A stretch of 64,000 nucleotides of DNA from Methylobacterium nodulans ORS 2060. GTDB lineage: Bacteria > Pseudomonadota > Alphaproteobacteria > Rhizobiales > Beijerinckiaceae. The stretch spans positions 124,001 to 188,000 of the forward strand of contig NC_011892.1 in assembly GCF_000022085.1 (NCBI RefSeq). Reading direction: 5' to 3'. This document shows, piece after piece, positions 9,752 to 23,043 of the stretch. The notes under the pieces were generated by a model. It ran no database searches, had not been told where the DNA came from, and saw only the letters and a list, made by a program, of their open reading frames with translations. The translations under genes were made by a program, and so were the position numbers. Each line of letters begins with the position of its first letter. Positions within the stretch are counted from its first letter, which is position 1.

Positions 9752-11476
9752 TCAGGATGGCGGCCTTCGTCCGGACGCGCCCCCGCCGCGGACCGGGTGG
9801 CACCGGGTCGGCGTGTCGCCGGCCACGAAATACGGCGCCTCGCTGCGCGGCAGCGGTGCCCGACCGCGGATGCGATCGGCGATCTTCTCGGCGATCATGA
9901 TCGTCGGCGCATTGAGGTTGCCCGTCACGATCAAGGGCATGATCGAGGCGTCGACCACCCGCAGCCCTTCCAGGCCGTGCACCCGTCCCTGACCATCGAC
10001 CACGGCCATCGCATCCTCTCCCATCTTGCAGGAGCAGGAGGGATGATAGGCGGTCTCGGCATGCGCACGCACGAAGGCATCGAGTTCGGCGTCGCTGCGC
10101 AGGTCCGCGCCGGGACTGATCTCGCGACCGCGATAAGGGTCGAGCGCCGGCTGCGCGATGATCTCGCGGGTGATGTGAATCGCATCGCGAAACTCGCGCC
10201 AGTCCTGCTCGCGCGACATGTAGTTGAACAGGAGGCTCGGGTGGTCGTTGGGATCGCGCGAGGTGAGCCGGATGCGGCCCCGGCTCGGCGAACGCATCGA
10301 GCCGACATGGGCCTGGAAGCCGTGCGACTTGATCGGATTGGTGCCGTTGTAATTGATCGCCAGCGGCAGGAAGTGGTACTGGAGGTTCGGCCAGGCGAAA
10401 TCCGGGCTCGACCGGATGAAGCCGCCGGCCTCGAACTGGTTGCTCGCACCGATTCCCGTGCCGGTGAAGAGCCACTGCGCGCCGATCAGCGGCTGATTGT
10501 GGAGCTTGAGGGCGGGGGCCAGCGAGACCGGTTCGCGGCACTCGAACTGCACGTAGATCTCGAGATGGTCCTGCAGGTTCTCGCCGACGCCCGGAAGATC
10601 GTGGACGACCGGGATGTCGAGGCCGCGCAGGAGATCCGCCGGGCCGACGCCGGAGCGCTGCAGGATCTGCGGCGAAGCGATCGCCCCGGAGCAAAGCAGC
10701 ACCTCCCGGCACGCCCGCGCCACGACCGGCCCGCGCCCGCCGCGCAGATAGGCGACCCCGCTCGCCCGCCGGCCCTCGAACAGGATGCGGTCGGTCAGCG
10801 CATGCGTGACGATGGTCAGGTTCGGGCGCGCCCGCGCCTGATCGAGGTAGCCCCGCGCGGTGCTCGACCGGCGCCCGTGCCGGGTTACGCTCCGGTCCAT
10901 CGGCCCGAAGCCCTCCTGCTGGTGGCCGTTGAGGTCGGGGGTGCGCGGGTAGCCGGCCTGCACGCCCGCCTCGACCATCGCCTCGAACAGGACGTTGCTG
11001 CCGGGCTTGGCCGTGGTCACGCTCAGGGGGCCGTCGCCGCCATGATAGGCGTCCGGCCCCACGTCACGGCTCTCGGCCTTGCGGAAATAGGGCAGGCAAT
11101 CGTGGTACGACCAGTCGGCGAGGCCCGGGCGCTGCGCCCAGCCGTCGTAATCGAGGGCGTTGCCCCGGATGTAGCACATGCCGTTGATGAGCGAGGAGCC
11201 GCCGAGCCCCTTGCCACGGCCACACTCCATCCGGCGGTTGTTCATGTGCGGCTCGGGATCGGTGCGGTAGGCCCAGTTGTAGCGCCGCCCCTGGAGCGGA
11301 TAGGCGAGCGCCGCCGGCATCTGGGTGCGGAAGTCGAGGCGGTAGTCGGGGCCGCCCGCCTCCAGCAACAGCACCGTCGTGTCCGGGTCCTCGGTGAGCC
11401 GGGTCGCCAGCACGTTGCCGGCCGAGCCGGCGCCGACGATGATGAAGTCGTACTCGCGGGCGTCCGTCTGGGGCAT
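9752..11476 (-). CDS. betA: Choline dehydrogenase
   Basis: A 574-residue GMC-family flavoprotein that oxidises choline to betaine aldehyde at the membrane and can carry on to betaine. The FAD-binding Rossmann motif is near the N-terminus ([18 protein letters not shown]), the GMC signatures follow ([20 protein letters not shown] and [17 protein letters not shown]), and the C-terminal catalytic region carries [11 protein letters not shown] and the [13 protein letters not shown] motif. The ATG at 11476 gives the expected N-terminus. It is the last gene of the minus-strand choX-choW-choV-betB-betA series, ~130 bases after betB. The C-terminal ~30 residues are Arg/Gly-rich and may extend past the usual end. 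Confidence 0.93.
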
Positions 11477-11607: not shown

Positions 11608-13077
11608 TCAGAACAGGGGGGCGAAGTCGGACAGCTCGACCTGGATCGACTTCGTGCGCGTGTAGCGCTCGAGGGTCTCGATCCCGTTCTCCCGGCCGAT
11701 CCCCGATTGCTTGGTTCCGCCGACCGGCATCTCGGGCGGAGATTCGCCCCAGGTGTTGATCCAGCAGATGCCGGCCTGAAGGCCGTGCGTGATCCGATGG
11801 GCGCGGGCGAGATCGCGGGTCACGACGCCGGCCGCGAGACCGTAGAGGGTGGCGTTGGCCCGGGCGAGCGCCTCGGCCTCGCTCTCGTAGGGGAGCAGGC
11901 TCATCACCGGCCCGAAGATCTCCTCGCGAACGATCTCCATGTCGTCGCGGCAATCCGTGAAGACGGTCGGCGCGACGTAGGCGCCGGCCGCGAAGCGGCC
12001 CTCCAGGGCGTGGCCGCCGATCAGGAGGCGGGCGCCCTGCTCCACCCCCGAACGGATGAAGGCGAGGACCTTGTCCCGGTGAGCATGGCTCGCAAGCGGG
12101 CCGAAATTCGTGGCCTCGTCGAGCGGGTCGCCGATGCGGATGCGGGCCACGCGCTTCAGCACCCGCGCCTCGAAAGCCGCCTTGAGGGGAGCGGGCACGA
12201 ACACCCGGGTCCCGTTGGTGCAGATCTGGCCCGAGCTGAAGAAATTCGCCGCGACCGCGATGTCGGCGGCCCGGTCGAGATCGGCGTCGTCGAGCACGAT
12301 GAGCGGCGACTTGCCGCCGAGCTCCATCGTAACCTCCTTGAGCGTCGAGCGGGCGGCGCCGGCCATCACCTTGGCGCCCGTGAGCGTGCCGCCGGTGAAC
12401 GATACCTTGGCGATTGCCGGGTGCTCGGTGAGCCACGCGCCGATCTCGCCGCCGAGGCCGGGCAGGACGCTGAACACGCCGTCGGGCAGGCCCGCCTCGG
12501 CGTAGATCCCGGCCAGCGCGAAGGCGGTGAGCGGCGTCACCTCGCTCGGCTTGAAGATCATGGCGTTCCCGGCCGCGAGGGCGGGCGCCGACTTCCAGAG
12601 GGCGATCTGGATCGGGTAGTTCCAGGCGCCGATGCCGGCGACGATCCCGAGGGGCTCGCGCCGGGTGTAGACGAAGGAGGTCTCCCGCAGGGGGATCTGC
12701 CGGCCCTCGATCGCCGCAGCGAGGCCCGCATAGTATTCCAGCACGTCGGCGCCGGTGGCGACGTCCACCACCCGGGTCTCGGCGATCGGCTTGCCGGTGT
12801 CGAGGCTCTCCAGCCGGGCGAGTTCGTCGTTGCGCGCCCGCAGAAGCGCCACGGCCCGCATCAGCACCCGGCCGCGCTCGCGCGCGGGCGTGGCGGCCCA
12901 GACGGCCTGCCCGCGTGCGGCCGCCGCGACGGCGGCCTCGAGATCCTCGCGCGTGGCGTGCTCGACCTCGGCCAGGATCTCGCCGGTCGCCGGATTGACC
13001 GACCGGAAGGTGCAACGCCCGGCCTCTTCGGCGAGGCGGCCCCCGATGAATGGGCGTTGGATGTCGGTGAGGAGCAT
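11608..13077 (-). CDS. betB: Betaine-aldehyde dehydrogenase
   Basis: A 489-residue NAD(P)-dependent aldehyde dehydrogenase converting betaine aldehyde to glycine betaine. The active-site residues are all present: Asn153 in [13 protein letters not shown], Glu252 in MELGGKSP, Cys286 in [14 protein letters not shown], plus the NAD-binding SFTGG motif and EEIFGPV. The start at 13077 matches family length. The gene lies between choV (50 bases upstream) and betA. It provides the sequence against which the degenerate ALDH domain of the BetI fusion (16504-18537) can be compared. Confidence 0.94.
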
Positions 13078-13127: not shown

Positions 13128-14351
13128 TCAGGTGTTCTGGAGAAGGCCGCGGTAGATCTCGCTGTGGTCGCACAGGCCCGCGAGGCGACCAAGCTGGTCG
13201 ACGAAGACGATCGGGTAGGGCGAGCGCAGGCGCAGATCGATCGCGGCCCGCAGCGGCAGCATCACGGGGGCGACGACGACCCGCCCGGGATCGCCGCAGG
13301 CGCCGGTCGCGTCGGCCCGCTCCAGCGCCTCCGCGCGTCCGCCGATATGCGCCATGACCGGGCGTTCCGCACAATCGAGGCTGATGCGCACCTCGCCGCT
13401 CCCGTCGAGGAGCACTGCGTCGCCTTCCCGCCGCAGGGCCGAGACGGGCGTCATCACGGCGCCGCTGTCGAGCACCTCCAGCGGGTTCATGTGCTTCACG
13501 AACTCGGTCACGTATGAGTTGGCCGGCCGGAGCACGATGTCCGAGGGGGTGCCGAACTGGACGACGTGGCCGCCCTCCATGATGGCGATGCGGTTGCCGA
13601 GCTTGAGCGCCTCGCTCAGGTCGTGGCTCACGAACACGATGGTCTTGTGGAGCTTGCGCTGCAGCTCCAGCAGGTCGTCCTGCAGCTTGTCGCGGATCAG
13701 CGGGTCGAGGGCCGAGAAGGGCTCGTCCATCAGCAGGATGTCGGCGTCCGTGGCGAAGGCGCGGGCGAGGCCGACGCGCTGCTGCATGCCTCCGGACAGC
13801 TCCTGGACCATCTTGTCGGCCCAGCTCGCGAGGCCGACCATCTCCAGCTTCTCGTCGACAATCCGCTGCCGCTCGGCGGCCGGCACCCCGCGCAGCTCCA
13901 GCCCGAAGCCGACATTGTCGCGGACGCTGCGCCAGGGCAGCAGGCCGAACTGCTGGAACACCATCGAGACGGTGTTGAGCCGCACCTCGCGCAGGGTGGA
14001 GGCCCGGCAGCGCGTCATGTCGACGGCCTCGCCGCGGTGGCGGACCAGCACGCTCCCGCGGGCCACCGGGTTCAGCCCGTTGATCGCCCGCAGCACGGTC
14101 GACTTGCCCGAGCCCGAGAGACCCATCAGGACGCAGATCTCGCCGGGCTTGACGTCGAGGTTGACCTTGAACGTCCCCATCAGGGCGTTGACCCGTTCGC
14201 GGATCAGCTCGCGGGTGGCGCCCTGGTCGGCCAGCGCCAGCGCGGCCTTGACGTCGCGGCCGAAGACGATGGCGACGTCGCGCAGTTCGATCGCGTTCTC
14301 CGGGGACGTCCGGCTGACAGGAGAGAGGGCTTTCATGTCGATGACGCTCAT
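13128..14351 (-). CDS. choV: Choline ABC transporter, ATP-binding subunit
   Basis: A 407-residue ATPase of the ProV/ChoV type that powers choline uptake. The Walker A motif is GLSGSGKST, the Q-loop is [14 protein letters not shown], the signature [14 protein letters not shown], and Walker [15 protein letters not shown]-terminal domain of ~130 residues follows and includes CBS-like sequence ([16 protein letters not shown]). The ATG overlaps the choW stop by four bases (ATGA), indicating translational coupling. Confidence 0.93.
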
Positions 14352-15205
14352 TGGGCGGCCTTTCGACTGCGCGGCGCGGGCCGCTTGCACACGCGGTCGA
14401 GGATGATCGCCAGCACCACGATGGCGAGGCCCGCCTCGAAGCCCATCGCGATGTTGACGGTGTTGAGGGCGCGCACGACTGGCTTGCCGAGGCCGTCGGC
14501 GCCCACGAGGGCGGCGATCACCACCATCGAGAGGCTGAGCATGATGCACTGGGTGACACCCGCCAGGATGGTCGGCATGGCGCTCGGCAGTTCGACCTTG
14601 AACAGCATCTGCGTGCGGGTCGCGCCGTAGGCAAGGGCCGCCTCGCGCAGGCTCTCGGGCACCGACGAGATGCCGAGCTGCGTCAGGCGGATCGGGGCCG
14701 GCAACGCGAAGATGACCGTCGAGATGATGCCCGGCACCATGCCGAGGCCGAACAGGACCAGGGTCGGGATCAGGTAGACGAAGGTCGGGATCGTCTGCAT
14801 CAAGTCGAGCAGAGGCCGGATGGCCGCGTAGAACATCGGCCGGTGCGCCGCCAGGATCCCGACGGGCACGCCTACGACCACGCATGCGGCCGTTGACCAT
14901 ATCACGAGGGACAGGGTCTCGATCGTGGCCTGCCAGTAGCCGAGATTCGCGACCAGCAGCAGCGAGGTCACGATGAACAGCGCAAGCCCGAGGGAGCGGT
15001 GGAGCAGGTAGGCGCCCGCCGCAAACAGCCCGATCATGGCGAGCGGGGGCACGGCCAGGAGCGTGTCGGTGAGCCCCTGCACCATCGCGCCGAGCACCGT
15101 CGAGATCAGGTCGAAGACGGCCTGGGCATGCCGGCTCAGGAAGTCGACGCCAGCCTTGAGCCAGATGCCGAGCGAGATCTTGTGATCGACGATCCAGTTA
15201 TACAT
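14348..15205 (-). CDS. choW: Choline ABC transporter, permease subunit
   Basis: A 285-residue inner-membrane permease of the ProW/OpuAB class with about six or more hydrophobic segments and the EAA-type loop ([20 protein letters not shown]) that contacts the ATPase. I chose the ATG at 15205; an in-frame GTG two codons upstream is possible. It overlaps choV by four bases and is separated from choX by a short spacer containing a strong stem-loop. Confidence 0.92.
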
Positions 15206-15237
15206 GGACACACCCGCTTGCAGGACATGACGGGAGA

Positions 15238-15278: not shown

Positions 15279-16217
15279 TCAGTTCAGGCCGAGGCTCGCC
15301 CGCGCGGCGGGCAGGCCCGGCTTGCCGTCGAAGGTCTCGACACCGTCGAGCCAGCGCTGCCATGCGCCGGGGTTCGCCTTGAGCCACTTGTCGGCGGCCT
15401 TCTCCGGATCGAGGCCGTCGAACAGGATCGAGCCCATGACGACGTTCTCGGTGGGAAGGTCGAAGGTGAGATTCTTGAAGAGCCGTCCGAGGTTCGGGCA
15501 CTGGGCGACGTAGCCAGCCCGCAGGTTGGTGAAGATCTCGGCGCCGCCGTAGTTCGGCCCGAAGGTGTCGTCGCCTCCCGACAGGTAGCGGATCGGGAAC
15601 TTCGTGTTCATCGGGTGGGGCTCCCAGCCGAGGAACAGGATCGGCTCCTTGCGCTGGATCGCGCGCTCGACCTGAGCCAACATGCCCTGCTCGCTCGATT
15701 CGACGAGATCGAAATTGCCAAGGTTGTAAGTATTGTTCTTGATGATTCCCAGGATCATCCGGTTACCGTCATTGCCTGGCTCAATGCCGTAGATCTTGCC
15801 CTTGAGTTGGCGATGAGACTTGGAGATGTCCGAGAATGACTTCAGACCCGCTTCGTACAGGTAGGCGGGCACCGCAAAGGTGTACTTCGCGCCGGTCAGA
15901 TTCGGCCCCAGGACCTCGATCTCGTTCTTGTCGAGATAGGGCTTCCGGTCCGCCTCCATGGTCGGCATCCAGTTGCCGAGGAAGACGTCGATGTTCTTCG
16001 AGCCGAGAGAGGCATAGGTCACCGGCACCGACAGGATCTGGGTCTTCGGGGTGTAGCCGAGGCCCGTCAGGATCCGGGAGGCGAGCGCGGTCGTGGCCGT
16101 GATGTCCGTCCAGCCGACATCGGCGAAGCGCACGGTCTTGCAGGCCGCCGGGTCTGCCGCGGCTGGCGTGGCGAACAGGGAGACGCCGAACAGGACACGG
16201 ACCAGGAAAACACGCAT
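15279..16217 (-). CDS. choX: Choline ABC transporter, periplasmic choline-binding protein
   Basis: A 312-residue secreted binding protein with a signal peptide (MRVFLVRVLFGVSLFATPAAA) and the OpuAC fold. Aromatic residues typical of the choline cage are visible around VGWTDITATTALA, FLGNWMPTMEAD and FGPNYGGAEIFTN. It is the first gene of the minus-strand operon, immediately behind the promoter region that carries the palindrome at 16266-16281, and so is presumably under repression by the BetI-type protein encoded divergently. Confidence 0.93.
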   Translation of the reverse strand: MRVFLVRVLFGVSLFATPAAADPAACKTVRFADVGWTDITATTALASRILTGLGYTPKTQILSVPVTYASLGSKNIDVFLGNWMPTMEADRKPYLDKNEIEVLGPNLTGAKYTFAVPAYLYEAGLKSFSDISKSHRQLKGKIYGIEPGNDGNRMILGIIKNNTYNLGNFDLVESSEQGMLAQVERAIQRKEPILFLGWEPHPMNTKFPIRYLSGGDDTFGPNYGGAEIFTNLRAGYVAQCPNLGRLFKNLTFDLPTENVVMGSILFDGLDPEKAADKWLKANPGAWQRWLDGVETFDGKPGLPAARASLGLN

Positions 16218-16265
16218 GATGAACCCCCTTCAGCGGATACCGGGCATTCGAGTTCGAAAACTTCA

Positions 16266-16281
16266 TTGAATGGCCATTCAA
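16266..16281. promoter_or_regulatory. Palindromic operator, probable BetI site, choX side
   Basis: The perfect 16-bp palindrome TTGAATGGCCATTCAA lies 49 bases upstream of the choX start. It shares TTGAAT-4-ATTCAA with the second palindrome at 16441-16456. BetI operators in other bacteria are TTGAA/TTCAA-type inverted repeats, which supports the assignment. Confidence 0.75.
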
Positions 16282-16440
16282 TAGTATGTTGACGCAGATG
16301 TCACGATAAATTTTTAAGCAATAGATGCTGCGGTGCGTGCATTATCGTTGAGAAATTGTGCGTCGCAGCAGATGGCGCTGGCTCACGGAGCGCCCGAGAG
16401 ATGGCTTCGTGATGGCACCGGGGTTGCACGAGAAGATGGG

Positions 16441-16456
16441 TTGAATGATCATTCAA
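16441..16456. promoter_or_regulatory. Palindromic operator, probable BetI site, regulator side
   Basis: The perfect 16-bp palindrome TTGAATGATCATTCAA lies 47 bases upstream of the fusion-gene ATG. Its centre is 175 bp from the first palindrome. Two sites placed symmetrically in a divergent region suggest joint control of the choline operon and autoregulation. Confidence 0.75.
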
Positions 16457-16503
16457 TCACTTGCCCGGGTCCTTGGCGACTCGGACATCCGCCGGGAGCC
16501 GCA

Positions 16504-18537
16504 ATGAAACATCTGGAGGCACTGCAAAGCTTCGAGGCCGCACGGCGGCGCCATCTCATTGAGGCGACGATGGAGACGCTGGCCGAAGTCGGCTTCAAGG
16601 CCGCCACCCTGAGCGAGATCGCCCGCCGGGCGAACGTGTCGGCCGGCCTGTTCGCCCACTACTTCCGCGGCAAGGACGGGCTGCTGGAAGCCACGCTGCG
16701 CTTTGTGGCCGCGCGCCTCGCCCGAGTGACGGCGGCCAAGCTCGCGGCGGCATCGACGCGGCGGGAGCGGCTGTTCGCCGTATGCGATGCCGCCCTGGCA
16801 GACGAGCAGTTCGACCGGCGCACCAGCGCCGTCTGGCTCGCGTTCTGGGGCCAGCTCACGCATTCAAAGCGCTACCAGCGCGTTCAGTACATCTACCAGC
16901 GCCGCATGATCACAAACCTGCGCCACTCCCTGCGGGGCTTGGTGCCAGCGGACTGCGTCGCGTTGCACGCCAGGATGATCGCCGCGATGATCGACGGGCT
17001 CTGGCTGCGCTCCCATGTTGCGAACGGCACGGCGAGTGGTGCGGAAGCCGGAGGGGCCGCGGCGCGAACGATCGTCCGCGCACTCATCGACGGCCTTCTG
17101 GCCGGGATGCCGGAGACGGCGGAACCTGGCGCGTCCGCCCGGCCGATCGCCGCGGCGCTTCCCGTCGCCGAGGCTCCGCCGATCCGGCACCGGAGCCCGA
17201 CGACCGGCGAGGAGATCGCCCGTTTCGCTCCCGCCCGTGCGACGGAGATCCGACGGGCCGTCCAGGATGCACAGCGGGGCCTCGCGGCCTGGAAGGCGAT
17301 CGGCGCAGCCGACCGCGCGCAGATCCTGCGCCGCTGCGCCGGTCTCCTGCGTGCCGAAGGGCCCGATCTCGCACGCCTGGAGAGCCTGGAGACGGGCCGC
17401 CCGCTGCTCCATACCGCCGGCCTCGACCTGCGGGATGCGGGCCGCGCGCTGGACCACGCCGCCGGGATCGCCGAACGGGCGGCGGCAAGCTGGACCGATC
17501 TAGGCAGCGGCCGGTTCGGCCATGTGCGGCGAGGCCCCGTCGGCATCATCGCCGCAACGGGACATTGGAGCGCAGCCATCCTCGACCTGTGCAGGCAGGC
17601 CGCCGGGCTCGCCCACGGCAATGCCGTCGTCCTCGCCGCCGATGCGTACGCCACGGAGACGAGCACGCGCCTCGCCGATCTCTTCGTGCGGGCGGGTCTC
17701 CCAGAGGGGACGCTGACGGTGCTGCGCGGCGATGCGGAGAGCGCGCGCCTCCTGCGAACATATCCCGGGCTCGCCACCGAAGCCGCCTCGGCGGGCGGGG
17801 ACGACGAGGTCGATCTCGGCGCAGGGCTCGGACGCAGCAAAGCCTGCACGATCGTCCTGCCGGGAGCCGATCCCGCCCGGGTCGCCGCCGCGATCTTTCA
17901 GGGCGGCCGGCGCTGGACGGGATCGTCCTTCGCCGGCCAGTCGCGGATCTACGTCCATGCCGATATGCGTCCGGACCTGCTGGACGCCCTACGCGCTCTG
18001 GCGAGCCGGTTGCGGCTCGGTAGCCCACTGGACCCGGCGACGCAGGTCGGTCCGTTGCTCTCGCCGACCCATGCCGCAGGCCTTGAGGACGCCTTGCGCT
18101 CAGATCTTGCCGCAATGGCCGCTCTGGTGGTCGGCGGACAGGTCTCGCGCGGGGGGACGACGCGCGCCGCTTGGCTCACGCCGACGGTTCTCGATCGGTG
18201 TACCGAATTGATGAGCCTCGTGCGGGGGCACAACTTCGCTCCCGTCGTGACCCTGATCCCGTTCGAGGACGACCAAGAACTGATCCGCCGGCTCGTGGGG
18301 CGCCGCGCGACGGCCGGTTTCGGTCTCTTCGCGGGCGACCCTTCGCGCGCCTGTCGCATAGCGAATGCGCTCGACGCAGCGTTCTGCGCCATCAACGACG
18401 ACGAGGCGGTTTCGGCGGCCGAGGATCTCGAGGCTGCACCCGCGCATCCGTTCGGATGGTCGCTGTCCGAGCATTCGAGCCAGGACCTGTCGCGAACGAC
18501 GCGCATCATCGGAGGCAAGGGCTGCGGCCCGATTTAG
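16504..18537 (+). CDS. BetI-type TetR repressor fused to a degenerate aldehyde dehydrogenase domain
   Basis: A 677-residue fusion. Residues 1-205 are a full BetI: the HTH is at about 33-65 (ATLSEIARRANVSAGLFAHY) and the ligand domain contains WLAFWGQLTH and AAMIDGLWLRS. After a short linker, residues ~228-670 align along the whole length of BetB (SPTTGEEIARFAPARATEI; RLESLETGRP; FVRAGLPEGTLTVLRGD; PFGWS). The active site is gone: Asn153 of BetB corresponds to Ser356 in GHWSAAI, Cys286 to Phe476 in WTGSSFAGQSRIYV, and Glu252 falls at Gly in AGLGRSK. The SFTGG NAD segment is deleted and EEIFGPV has become GHNFAPV. The frame is open throughout, so this is one gene. I infer a pseudo-enzyme sensor that binds betaine aldehyde or another intermediate and modulates repression. 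The ATG at 16504 fits the known BetI N-terminus; the longer upstream frame runs through the operator. Confidence 0.88.
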   Translation: MKHLEALQSFEAARRRHLIEATMETLAEVGFKAATLSEIARRANVSAGLFAHYFRGKDGLLEATLRFVAARLARVTAAKLAAASTRRERLFAVCDAALADEQFDRRTSAVWLAFWGQLTHSKRYQRVQYIYQRRMITNLRHSLRGLVPADCVALHARMIAAMIDGLWLRSHVANGTASGAEAGGAAARTIVRALIDGLLAGMPETAEPGASARPIAAALPVAEAPPIRHRSPTTGEEIARFAPARATEIRRAVQDAQRGLAAWKAIGAADRAQILRRCAGLLRAEGPDLARLESLETGRPLLHTAGLDLRDAGRALDHAAGIAERAAASWTDLGSGRFGHVRRGPVGIIAATGHWSAAILDLCRQAAGLAHGNAVVLAADAYATETSTRLADLFVRAGLPEGTLTVLRGDAESARLLRTYPGLATEAASAGGDDEVDLGAGLGRSKACTIVLPGADPARVAAAIFQGGRRWTGSSFAGQSRIYVHADMRPDLLDALRALASRLRLGSPLDPATQVGPLLSPTHAAGLEDALRSDLAAMAALVVGGQVSRGGTTRAAWLTPTVLDRCTELMSLVRGHNFAPVVTLIPFEDDQELIRRLVGRRATAGFGLFAGDPSRACRIANALDAAFCAINDDEAVSAAEDLEAAPAHPFGWSLSEHSSQDLSRTTRIIGGKGCGPI

Positions 18538-18662: not shown

Positions 18663-19343
<681 letters not shown>

Positions 19344-19344
19344 G

Positions 19345-19560
19345 GTCGGCGGCCTCGTCCAGATCCCCTGTATCGAGCGCAACGCGTTCGGGGCCAACAA
19401 GGCCGTCGCCGTCGCCTCGCTCACCCTGCGCGGCGGCGGAGTCCACTTCGTGACCCTCGACGAAGTCATCGAAACGATGCGCCAGACCGGGCACGCCATG
19501 CAGGCGAAGTACAAGGAGACCTCCCTGGGCGGGCTCGCGGTCAACGTCGCCGCCTGCTGA
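19345..19560 (+). pseudogene. sdaA: L-serine dehydratase, C-terminal end only
   Basis: Seventy-one codons encode [40 protein letters not shown] and the terminal [10 protein letters not shown]. These are the hallmark C-terminal motifs of iron-sulfur L-serine ammonia-lyases, including cluster-ligand cysteines. Everything upstream has been lost at the junction with glyA. No start codon is expected for this piece. Confidence 0.88.
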
Positions 19561-21194: not shown

Positions 21195-22088
21195 GGGCGT
21201 GTCGCAAACGCGGATGGGCCCATGTTCACGGGTTGTTAGCCATAGCCGCCCAGCTTGCCGCTCCGCCCTCGGAGCCGGCCCATGATCCTGAATGCCCTCG
21301 CCCTCACGCTGAAGCGCCAGGCCCGCGGCGACTTCCGGGGCCGGCATGTCGAGGCCACGCTGATCGTGCAGGCCGTCTCCTGGTCCCTGCGCGACGCGCT
21401 CAGCGACCGCGACATCGAGGAGATGCTCCTGGAGAGGGGCCTGCAGGTGGACCACTCCACCCTCAACCGGTGGGTCCTCGCCTATGCACCCGCCCTCGAG
21501 CGTCGGCTGCGCCGGTTCCGCAAGCCGCCCTGCGGATCCGGGCGCGTCGACGAGACCTCTATCCGCGTCCGCGGCCAGTGGCGCTCCCTCGACCGGGCCA
21601 TCGACAAGCCCGGCGAAGCGGTCGACGTCCTGCTCACGGCCAACCGCGATCTCGATGCCGCCCAGCGCGTCTTCCGCACGATGCTGCAGGATCAGCCGTT
21701 GCTCGCTCCAGACCGGATCGGCACCGATGGGGCCGGCCCGCACCCGCCAGCCATCGCCAAGAGCCGCAAGGAGGGCCTGCTGCCTCGCACGCCCACCCAC
21801 CACGTCACCAAGCCCCTGCAGCAAGGGATCGCGAGCGACCACGTCCGGGTGAAGCGGCCGATGCCGCGGGGGGGCGGGTTCCGCTCCTTCACCACGGCCC
21901 GGCGGACGATCCAGGGCGTCAAAGCCATGCTGTGGCGGCGCAAGGGCTTCGGGTTTGCGGGGGCCTGGACCGTGCGGGAGCAGAACCAGCTGCTCGCGCA
22001 CTGCTTCGGACTTCCCGTCGCGAACAAAGCATGAAAGCGGGGACGGACAGCCCCTTCTGCGGCTCGCACCCGAGTTTGCGACAAGCCC
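21195..22088 (+). mobile_element. IS6-like insertion sequence, full length
   Basis: The inverted ends GGGCGTGTCGCAAAC (21195-21209) and GTTTGCGACAAGCCC (22074-22088) match at all but one base. The ~894-bp unit contains one transposase gene. Eight-base flanks do not match, so no target duplication is preserved. Partial copies of the same element occur at 3038-3240 and 36432-37024. Confidence 0.8.
21282..22034 (+). CDS. IS6-like transposase lacking the usual catalytic Glu
   Basis: A 250-residue protein starting at MILNALALTLKRQARGDFRG. The DDE domain shows the first Asp in RVDETSIRVRGQW and the second in RIGTDGAG. Where IS6 proteins have IEQDHRR, this one reads IASDHVRVK, so the third acidic residue is missing. 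The partial copy at 36432 has the same IASD. The copy is otherwise open and the right length. Whether it moves on its own is doubtful. Confidence 0.75.
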   Translation: MILNALALTLKRQARGDFRGRHVEATLIVQAVSWSLRDALSDRDIEEMLLERGLQVDHSTLNRWVLAYAPALERRLRRFRKPPCGSGRVDETSIRVRGQWRSLDRAIDKPGEAVDVLLTANRDLDAAQRVFRTMLQDQPLLAPDRIGTDGAGPHPPAIAKSRKEGLLPRTPTHHVTKPLQQGIASDHVRVKRPMPRGGGFRSFTTARRTIQGVKAMLWRRKGFGFAGAWTVREQNQLLAHCFGLPVANKA

Positions 22089-22103: not shown

Positions 22104-22132
22104 TTGTCCAGCGGACTTACACTTGTTACAGA
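22104..22132 (+). promoter_or_regulatory. Possible sigma70 promoter of the PIN toxin-antitoxin pair
   Basis: TTGTCC and TACAGA are separated by 17 bases and lie about 20 bases before the antitoxin start, just outside the IS6 right end. The match to consensus is only moderate. Confidence 0.3.
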
Positions 22133-22151
22133 TACACCGATGGAGCCGGTC

Positions 22152-22619
22152 ATGTCCGAAGCCGCGGCGATCATCCCCTCTCCTGAAGCCGAGCGCGAAC
22201 CGAACGCACGCCTCGCTGATGCGCTGCGACGCCTTCGAGGTGAGAGAGGACAAAAGACCATGGCCCTGACCCTGCACGGTCCTTCCGGAGAAGCAGTCGG
22301 TTCGCTGACCGCCTCAGCCGTCGAGGCTCTCGAGGCTGCTTTGGCCCGCCTCGCCGAGTCCGACACGATCATGCTCGGATCGCAGGATGCGGAGTTGTCA
22401 CCGGAGGCCGCCGCAAAGATCCTCGGGGTTTCCAGGCCGGTGGTCTACCACCGCATGGACAGTGGGCGCTTGCCGTTCCGCCAAGTCGGCTCGCACCGGC
22501 GCGTCCTCTACAAGGACGTCCTGGCGCTGAAGGCGTTCGAGGAGGAGAGGCGGGGGTTCTCCAAGGCCATGAGCGAGGACACCGACGAGCAGGAGGAGCC
22601 GATCCCTCGTGGCTTCTAA
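22152..22619 (+). CDS. Excisionase-type HTH antitoxin
   Basis: A 155-residue protein. The C-terminal half is an excisionase/MerR-like winged helix (LSPEAAAKILGVSRPVVYHR, then GRLPFRQVGSHRRVLYKDVL) that should bind DNA; the tail is very acidic (EDTDEQEEP), as expected for a toxin-binding segment. The N-terminal half is helical. The ATG at 22152 has GGAG six bases upstream, better than the alternatives at 22140 and 22104. It overlaps the PIN gene by 11 bases, a typical antitoxin-first arrangement. Confidence 0.75.
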   Translation: MSEAAAIIPSPEAEREPNARLADALRRLRGERGQKTMALTLHGPSGEAVGSLTASAVEALEAALARLAESDTIMLGSQDAELSPEAAAKILGVSRPVVYHRMDSGRLPFRQVGSHRRVLYKDVLALKAFEEERRGFSKAMSEDTDEQEEPIPRGF

Positions 22620-23043
22620 GGTCTTCGTCGACGCAAACGTCCTCTGGTCCCCTCAGCAGCGCAACCTGCTCCTTCAACTCGCCTATCAGGACCTCTTCGC
22701 GATCCATTGGACCGACACCGTCATCGGCGAGTGGCTCCGCAACCTCGACCTGGGGCAGAGGACCAAGTGCGAGACGAGGACGCTGCCCCTGATGCGGCGG
22801 CACTTCCCGAGGGCTTGGCTGCCGACGATGCCGGCAACGCCGTTCGGGACGACCGATCCGAAAGATCGCCATGTCGCCGCCGGTGCGGTCCACATCACGC
22901 CCTCCATCCTGCTCACCTGGAATGTGGGGGACTTCGACGATGCGGCGCTGCGTTCCCTTGGCGTCGAGGTTCAGACGCCGGACCGGTTCCTGCGAAGGCT
23001 CCTCGATGGCAGCCCGGCCGCCGTGCTGGAGTTCACGCGGTAG
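22609..23043 (+). CDS. PIN-domain toxin, probably C-terminally shortened by a TAG
   Basis: A 144-residue PIN-fold protein, predicted to be an RNase. Acidic active-site positions are visible in KVFVDANVLWS, IGEWLRN, TTDPKDRHVAAGAV and WNVGDFDD. It starts with a GTG inside the antitoxin gene. After the TAG at 23041-23043 the same frame continues for 37 codons (AQANLSKTAPNWEAYKAVLL and onward) to 23157, which reads like the genuine C-terminus; CAG to TAG is a one-base change. The core acidic residues are upstream of the stop, so partial activity is possible. Confidence 0.75.
   Translation: MASKVFVDANVLWSPQQRNLLLQLAYQDLFAIHWTDTVIGEWLRNLDLGQRTKCETRTLPLMRRHFPRAWLPTMPATPFGTTDPKDRHVAAGAVHITPSILLTWNVGDFDDAALRSLGVEVQTPDRFLRRLLDGSPAAVLEFTR

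Follow-up and report, generated by a model that had tools for sequence, protein, structure and literature searches.

The window analysed here, a 64,000-nucleotide stretch of the Methylobacterium nodulans ORS 2060 genome, carries on its forward strand (16504-18537) a single open frame of 677 residues in which BetI is joined to an aldehyde dehydrogenase (ALDH) domain. A divergent operon lies on the reverse strand. Its first gene codes for a choX-type choline/betaine-binding protein (15279..16217; OpuAC, PF04069, 190 bits) and is followed by a choW-type permease gene (14348..15211; BPD_transp_1), which adjoins in the relatives as well, and by the reading frame of a 407-residue ATPase (13128..14351), a conserved neighbour which we take to be choV by homology. 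Next comes a separate and intact betB of 489 residues (11608..13077), the product of which has Cys286, Glu252, Asn153, Tyr154, Trp161 and Lys176 and scored 816 bits with PRK13252 (cut-off 593) in a scan that included a 65-residue upstream extension. The frame at 9752..11476 (574 residues) is presumably betA, coding for choline dehydrogenase, a name given by homology and in line with the copies found in relatives. On the other side of the fused gene, a partial glyA (18663-19544, reverse strand), covering only positions 198-399 of the SHMT profile, abuts at about 19345 a partial L-serine dehydratase gene (19081-19560, forward strand; SDH_alpha 195-260 only). The 5' part of both is missing there, and this junction is probably a rearrangement scar. 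Further on, an IS240-type transposase frame (DDE_Tnp_IS240; 21255-22034, forward strand) has at its 3' side an HTH_17 protein (22104-22619) that overlaps a frame without Pfam match (22609-23043), in a toxin-antitoxin-like arrangement.

The BetI half of the fused protein (residues 1-200; 16504..17103, +) consists of a TetR-type DNA-binding domain and a BetI-type C-terminal domain, as recognised by Pfam (TetR_N at 18-63, 53.1 bits with a cut-off of 24; TetR_C_6 at 87-199, 86.5 bits with a cut-off of 27) and by the NCBIfam BetI model PRK00767 (166.4 bits, cut-off 118). The score with the equivalog model TIGR03384 was below the cut-off (177.3 vs 201.3 bits), so that by this profile the protein would be at most a divergent BetI. 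A little conserved linker (residues 201-227; 17104..17184, +), marked by its pN/pS and by a low pLDDT at 201-220, leads to the ALDH domain (residues 228-634; 17185..18405, +), which lacks the catalytic residues. Its place in the ALDH fold was established both by the Aldedh profile (PF00171; residues 227-638, 218 bits, E 1.9e-64, far over chance) and by a fold match; no other fold stood among the structure matches listed, an absence without evidential weight. The two betaine-aldehyde dehydrogenase models scored far below their cut-offs (209.9 bits for a cut-off of 593, 195.7 for one of 668.6), and the identity with the neighbouring BetB is 32% over 464 aligned columns (BLASTP). AlphaFold2 folded the domain with confidence, even when only Cys-less sequences were supplied. 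In the tail (residues 635-677; 18406..18534, +), which replaces the C-terminal end of BetB, pLDDT falls below 50 at 635-664 and both this measure and pN/pS point to a degenerate, mostly unstructured segment. The open frame and the preserved fold proposed in the initial annotation were thus borne out, whereas the end-to-end alignment with BetB that it described does not extend to the last ~40 residues, which are degenerate, the Aldedh profile match stopping at position 430 of 461. Chance or a sequencing error behind the fusion is out, the identical build recurring in eight more Methylobacterium genomes and in other genera.

The alignment with the neighbouring BetB places Ser356, preceded by Trp355 (17566..17571, +), at the oxyanion residue Asn153, Leu442 (17827..17829, +) at the general base Glu252 and Phe476 at the nucleophile Cys286; the segment from Trp471 (BetB Ser281) to Phe476 spans 17914..17931 (+). 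With Phe, Leu and Ser at Cys286, Glu252 and Asn153, Lys176 lost and the SFTGG segment lost and shortened, the domain does not qualify as a BetB. The losses of Cys, Asn and SFTGG noticed earlier from the sequence are therefore real and the general-base Glu, which had been read as Gly, aligns with Leu442 instead. These losses are common to relatives. A first protein search gave 600 relatives, the best 120 of which were listed; a second, run with a profile of 26 dead forms, gave 520 at E <= 1e-100, and again the best 120 of 520 were listed. The two listings together hold at least 154 different proteins, 118 with a Cys in the aligned catalytic column and 36 without (one of these, P0121, is a 509-residue piece devoid of BetI domains). 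In the 36 Cys-less proteins listed, the Cys is replaced by Phe (22), Tyr (3), Asp (3), Ala (3), Ser (2), Pro (1) or a gap (2); Trp355 is kept in 32, Ser356 in 33 and Trp471 in 30, and Tyr154, Trp161 and Lys176 of BetB are kept in 0, 0 and 1, respectively. Among the best 120 of 600 relatives, the pocket pair Tyr154 and Trp161 was found in 90/90 live fusions and in 0/30 dead ones. Trp355, Ser356 and Trp471 are invariant (26/26) in alignment A3, made of the 30 dead forms of the first listing without P0026, P0028 and the Kaistia forms. Two fusions of the dead clade, P0124 and P0132, keep Asn153 and have lost Glu252, a hint that Asn153 may have outlasted Glu252 in the order of losses. P0124 was discarded as an intermediate with both Cys and Asn, its Cys being possibly misaligned by one residue, and only the kept Asn was used.

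Nearly all the Cys-bearing proteins listed (116 of 118) have all nine scored residues and are live BetI-BetB fusions, encountered among the matches listed in Azorhizobium, Ancylobacter, Bosea, Aureimonas and some Kaistia. Judged from these alignments, the dead form is a derivative or a sister of the live fusions. The initial annotation knew of no described BetI of this build; it does not stand alone, since live BetI-BetB fusions occur across the order, and the existence of a live ancestor type makes the fusion less mysterious than at first. When 111 genomes of the genus were searched with stop codons read through, nine gave a match at E <= 1e-45, and all nine hold the fusion without internal stop; the dead domain occurs in Methylobacteriaceae, in Methylopilaceae, in Chelatococcus and in others. 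In a sample of 297 genomes of the order, 11 uninterrupted full-length matches to the Azorhizobium fusion were obtained, one of which is that of K. defluvii, also counted below as locus L059. In four others of the 297 (G158, G202, G236 and G312; loci L121, L124, L126 and L128), the match runs across one stop codon that separates betI from betB; the two genes lie in-frame, one stop apart, which suggests a route by which neighbouring genes could fuse. The BetI of these four loci sits on a distant branch of the BetI-half tree. No relative was found in the viral contigs searched.

In a tree of the BetI half (54 rows, one repeat left out), 13 dead forms and three BetIs without the domain make up a clade of Methylobacterium/Methylopila type, hereafter clade 1, with a support of 100/100, and three dead and two live Kaistia forms fall in one clade (97/97). 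A second BetI tree of 57 rows recovered clade 1 (100/100) and Kaistia (100/99), with the dead Kaistia forms nested among the live ones; in this tree, the Hansschlegelia protein P0123 retains the dead domain. Forcing all dead forms together on the BetI half cost 23 log units (p-AU 0.005, for a constrained group picked after the tree was seen). A single death for all dead forms is rejected on this basis, a rejection which the ALDH-half tree opposes: there, all dead forms are united with a support of 99 (seven rows were left out, namely six repeats of included genes and, needlessly, the separate BetB of G061). The BetI half was preferred because the ALDH-half tree carries warnings of long branches and of odd composition. 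On the BetI sequences, the enzyme half would thus probably have died at least two times. By the same sequences, Kaistia would be a second instance of enzyme death in a fusion; the fused BetB is dead in K. granuli and K. adipata (L050, L062) and intact in K. terrae and K. defluvii (L051, L059). The three domain-less BetIs, from two Hansschlegelia species and one Roseiarcus MAG, are nested in the dead clade, so the dead domain was itself probably lost at least two times. The initial annotation had named as counter-evidence close relatives with separate betI and active ALDH genes; domain-less BetIs turned up only further out, in these three genomes. The signal of a possible ALDH remnant in the BetI tail is weak in H. 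plantiphila (1-6 of 300 shuffles scored as high) and none was seen in H. quercus (102-229 of 300).

Ten of the 12 named clade-1 dead loci have an intact betB and a betA in the divergent cho operon, the betA copies beside betB in relatives being 79-90% identical. At an eleventh, L047, the locus is cut by the contig end and betB and betA are both on another contig; the twelfth, L063, comes from a Rhizobiales MAG, possibly incomplete, in which betA is present and the matches at E <= 1e-80 include no BetB above 41%. At L048, no choV turned up next to the other cho-bet genes. The separate BetBs (40 rows, reduced to 34 different ones as the window BetB and five other genes were each met twice) all keep Trp152, Asn153, Tyr154, Trp161, Lys176, Glu252, Cys286 and Glu386. 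Unlike clade 1, the live loci with a name, nine in all and from Kaistia and Aureimonas, have the fusion as their only close BetB, no second BetB of 50% or more being found in the stretch examined, and betA directly follows the fusion in 8/9. At the two dead Kaistia loci, the cho genes are present and both betA and betB are missing from the stretch examined; for K. granuli, BetB matches other than the fusion reach at best 39% (at E <= 1e-80) and BetA matches 44% (at E <= 1e-90). As far as can be judged from such matches, enzyme death accompanies a separate BetB in clade 1, and K. granuli has no recognisable BetA or BetB. Copies of betA at 82-84% identity are present in L063 and in the Roseiarcus MAG (L070), and the latter genome likewise gave no BetB above 41% at E <= 1e-80.

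The dead domain is under relaxed but real purifying selection. In the five closest clade-1 pairs, the pooled pN/pS of the dead ALDH is 0.35 (0.31-0.39) and that of their own BetI half 0.08; in four live pairs, the values are 0.14 for ALDH and 0.12 for BetI. These pools of closest relatives were taken from 17 pairs first computed and the pairs of the window gene lie outside them: its two pairs are looser, with 0.51 and 0.54 for ALDH against 0.30 and 0.28 for their own BetI. Single dead pairs range from 0.23 to 0.70 (nine pairs), the dead Kaistia pair, at 0.70, being nearest to neutral. Simulations of neutral evolution were fitted to the individual pairs under two base compositions; their means were 1.03-1.36, and the observed pN/pS was under all 200 simulations in 11/11 pairs (9 dead, 2 live). 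A simple pseudogene is rejected by this result, and so is, for 9/9 dead pairs, the neutral decay that had been named in advance as the outcome contrary to a retained domain. Along the protein, the segments 351-490 round the old active site are among the most constrained in the live fusions (0.06-0.08) and nothing special in the dead ones (0.24-0.46), where pN/pS is fairly even over the domain (0.24-0.46, minimum at 291-410). The linker (residues 201-226) evolves alike in both (0.65 dead, 0.64 live), whereas the tail stands at 0.49 in the dead forms vs 0.04 in the live ones. In close pairs, as many as 54 of 100 neutral simulations of GC-rich composition contained no stop, so that the absence of stops means little there and more in distant pairs. 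Beyond codon 240, each of the 13 gaps seen in eight dead pairs is a multiple of three. Four gaps at codons 197-232 break this rule (10 + 2 bases, and 25 vs 1) and offset one another to 12 and 24. These indels weigh little, since there is overlap between the pairs and the collection was one of open frames.

Two perfect palindromes lie in the intergenic region (16218-16503) between the fusion gene and choX. TTGAATGGCCATTCAA, upstream of choX (16266..16281), and TTGAATGATCATTCAA, upstream of the fusion gene (16441..16456), are probable BetI operators, the latter for autoregulation. In the 8.84-Mb genome, TTGAAYGNNCRTTCAA matches only these two palindromes, and the reversed pattern used as control matched 0 times. 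Sites with at most two mismatches precede the gene in 25 of the 28 loci compared; none was found upstream in L055, L057 and L059. Palindromic candidate operators at bet/cho promoters, as expected of a BetI, are thus present as far as the sequence goes. The genome yielded no second BetI, the next match to the BetI half being no better than E 5e-7. Published BetI boxes are ATTGACG*CGTCAAT and a shared AAACTTGAAC (PMC12442346), and choline is given as the effector of published BetIs in PMC7876524 and PMC12442346. For two BetIs of Ruegeria, the latter source reports choline as the effector rather than any later product, with induction persisting without BetA. The operators, the lack of a second BetI in the genome and the published BetIs argue that the BetI half is probably a choline-released repressor, which would most likely keep choXWV-betBA and its own gene switched off until choline arrives.

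On balance, the explanation that we favour is that the protein is a choline-responsive repressor of choXWV-betBA bearing a non-catalytic, folded ALDH domain kept for structural or allosteric reasons. The fusion gene, the only betI found in the genome, would act through its BetI half, which should bind the two palindromes by its homology to BetI and the published BetIs, so that the fusion would repress itself and the divergent choXWV-betB-betA operon as long as choline is absent. The ALDH half would derive from a BetI-BetB protein with both functions, a type that survives, catalytic residues included, in Azorhizobium, Ancylobacter, Bosea, Aureimonas and some Kaistia. A separate BetB would then have taken over betaine-aldehyde oxidation and the fused copy would have lost its NAD, substrate and catalytic residues. 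Most likely, the repressor became dependent on the dead domain for its solubility, folding, oligomeric state or operator geometry, and we infer in such a dependence the reason why the domain was retained. The structural need is not universal, as the domain-less BetIs nested in the dead clade indicate. The looser pairs of the window gene, the value of 0.70 in Kaistia and the support of 99 for a single dead group in the ALDH-half tree, set against two deaths, count against this explanation, and the invariance of Trp355, Ser356 and Trp471 at the old active site is unexpected under plain scaffolding.

These three residues speak for a metabolite sensor, in which the dead ALDH would bind betaine aldehyde, as in the initial annotation, or another quaternary ammonium compound or a nucleotide, and signal to the BetI half. 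Their position at the former catalytic site, by alignment, makes a reshaped aromatic pocket possible; the fold is kept, and MocR/GabR offer a precedent for a regulator whose large domain has an enzyme fold. We nevertheless consider a sensor unlikely. The Tyr and Trp of the betaine-aldehyde pocket supposed to be kept are gone from every dead form scored, the former active-site segments are now no better constrained than the rest, choline itself is the effector in Ruegeria, and K. granuli keeps the dead domain without any BetA above the 44% match. From these sequence data, the lost pocket, the lost segment constraint and the domain losses together weaken the proposed betaine-aldehyde sensor; what stands of the earlier interpretation is a BetI fused to a dead, non-neutral ALDH, and what finds no support is its uniqueness and its pocket. 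The domain could also be a functionless vestige in decay, in which in-frame substitutions are tolerated and truncation has yet to be fixed. The two- to four-fold relaxation relative to the BetI half and to live ALDH, the degenerate tail, the domain losses in Hansschlegelia and Roseiarcus, the values of the Kaistia and window pairs and the frequency of stop-free frames in close neutral simulations would all fit. This reading is improbable in view of a pN/pS under every neutral simulation in 9/9 dead pairs, of a constraint that spans the whole domain, of nine fusions free of internal stops in the nine genomes of the genus that hold one and of the holding of the domain in Methylobacteriaceae, Methylopilaceae, Chelatococcus and others.

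ALDHs of the BetB family are oligomers, and the pseudo-ALDH might assemble with BetB and tether the repressor, so that the level or the occupancy of BetB feeds back. An intact BetB, encoded in the same cluster at 10/12 named clade-1 loci and for an eleventh on a different contig, would suit such docking. The C-terminal strand region, which serves ALDH dimer formation, is however the most degenerate part of the dead domain, and K. granuli and the possibly incomplete MAG L063 keep that domain without a separate BetB above 41% among matches at E <= 1e-80; we regard a hetero-oligomer as very unlikely. New catalysis independent of Cys, Asn, Glu and NAD(P) is hardly credible: the fold is kept and some residues are invariant, but the nucleophile position varies among Phe, Tyr, Asp, Ala, Ser, Pro and a gap in the 36 proteins listed, and no shared set of polar replacements was seen. 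A bolder proposal, conceivable though we lean against it, is that a repressor-enzyme fusion twice became a repressor with a pseudoenzyme regulatory domain and that, once catalysis had been lost, Trp471, Ser356 and Phe476 came to fill the old active site of the Methylobacterium clade, giving a new pocket or switch surface that tunes the response to choline metabolism, which would make the protein a TetR regulator with a second, ALDH-derived input.

The fused build also accounts for the names in databases, where relatives are called 'BetI', 'betaine-aldehyde dehydrogenase' or, for P0035 of Azorhizobium caulinodans, 'Multifunctional fusion', and the second label, also given to some dead forms such as P0009 and P0018, wrongly credits them with enzyme activity. 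No paper on a BetI-BetB or BetI-dead-ALDH fusion was found in the open literature searched, mostly at the level of title and abstract, and the parts available of PMC7876524, PMC4744692 and PMC12442346 make no mention of a fusion of BetI with ALDH. The real and selectively kept fusion is a BetI variant with a pseudoenzyme domain. With separate genes, live fusion, dead fusion and secondary loss at comparable loci, one bacterial order offers an ordered series which permits a direct test of what the fused enzyme contributes to the repressor and of whether a pseudoenzyme can be retained for regulation.

With BetI, the TetR-family repressor of betIBA (TIGR03384/PRK00767), the fusion shares the DNA-binding and BetI-type C-terminal domains, the bet/cho context and palindromic sites with TTGAA half-sites; it differs from an ordinary BetI by a C-terminal ALDH extension of ~450 residues and by its score under the TIGR03384 cut-off. 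The live BetI-BetB fusions, such as P0035, have the same domain order and length class and are presumed to represent the ancestral state, but they keep the catalytic and pocket residues. In the trifunctional PutA (proline utilization A), too, an autogenous repressor is joined to an enzyme of its pathway, one with an ALDH module (PMC5293562). Its ribbon-helix-helix and proline dehydrogenase domains and its active ALDH are its own, and the fusion does not belong to it, since Pfam found only TetR_N, TetR_C_6 and Aldedh. The title of a 2016 paper by Luo reportedly refers to an ALDH-superfamily domain of unknown function in PutA, a possible non-catalytic parallel. MocR/GabR regulators also combine a helix-turn-helix with a whole enzyme fold; their winged helix and aminotransferase fold, both absent from the Pfam scan of the fusion, mark families unrelated to it. 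PutA is the closest working parallel, and MocR/GabR the closest one for an enzyme fold within a regulator.
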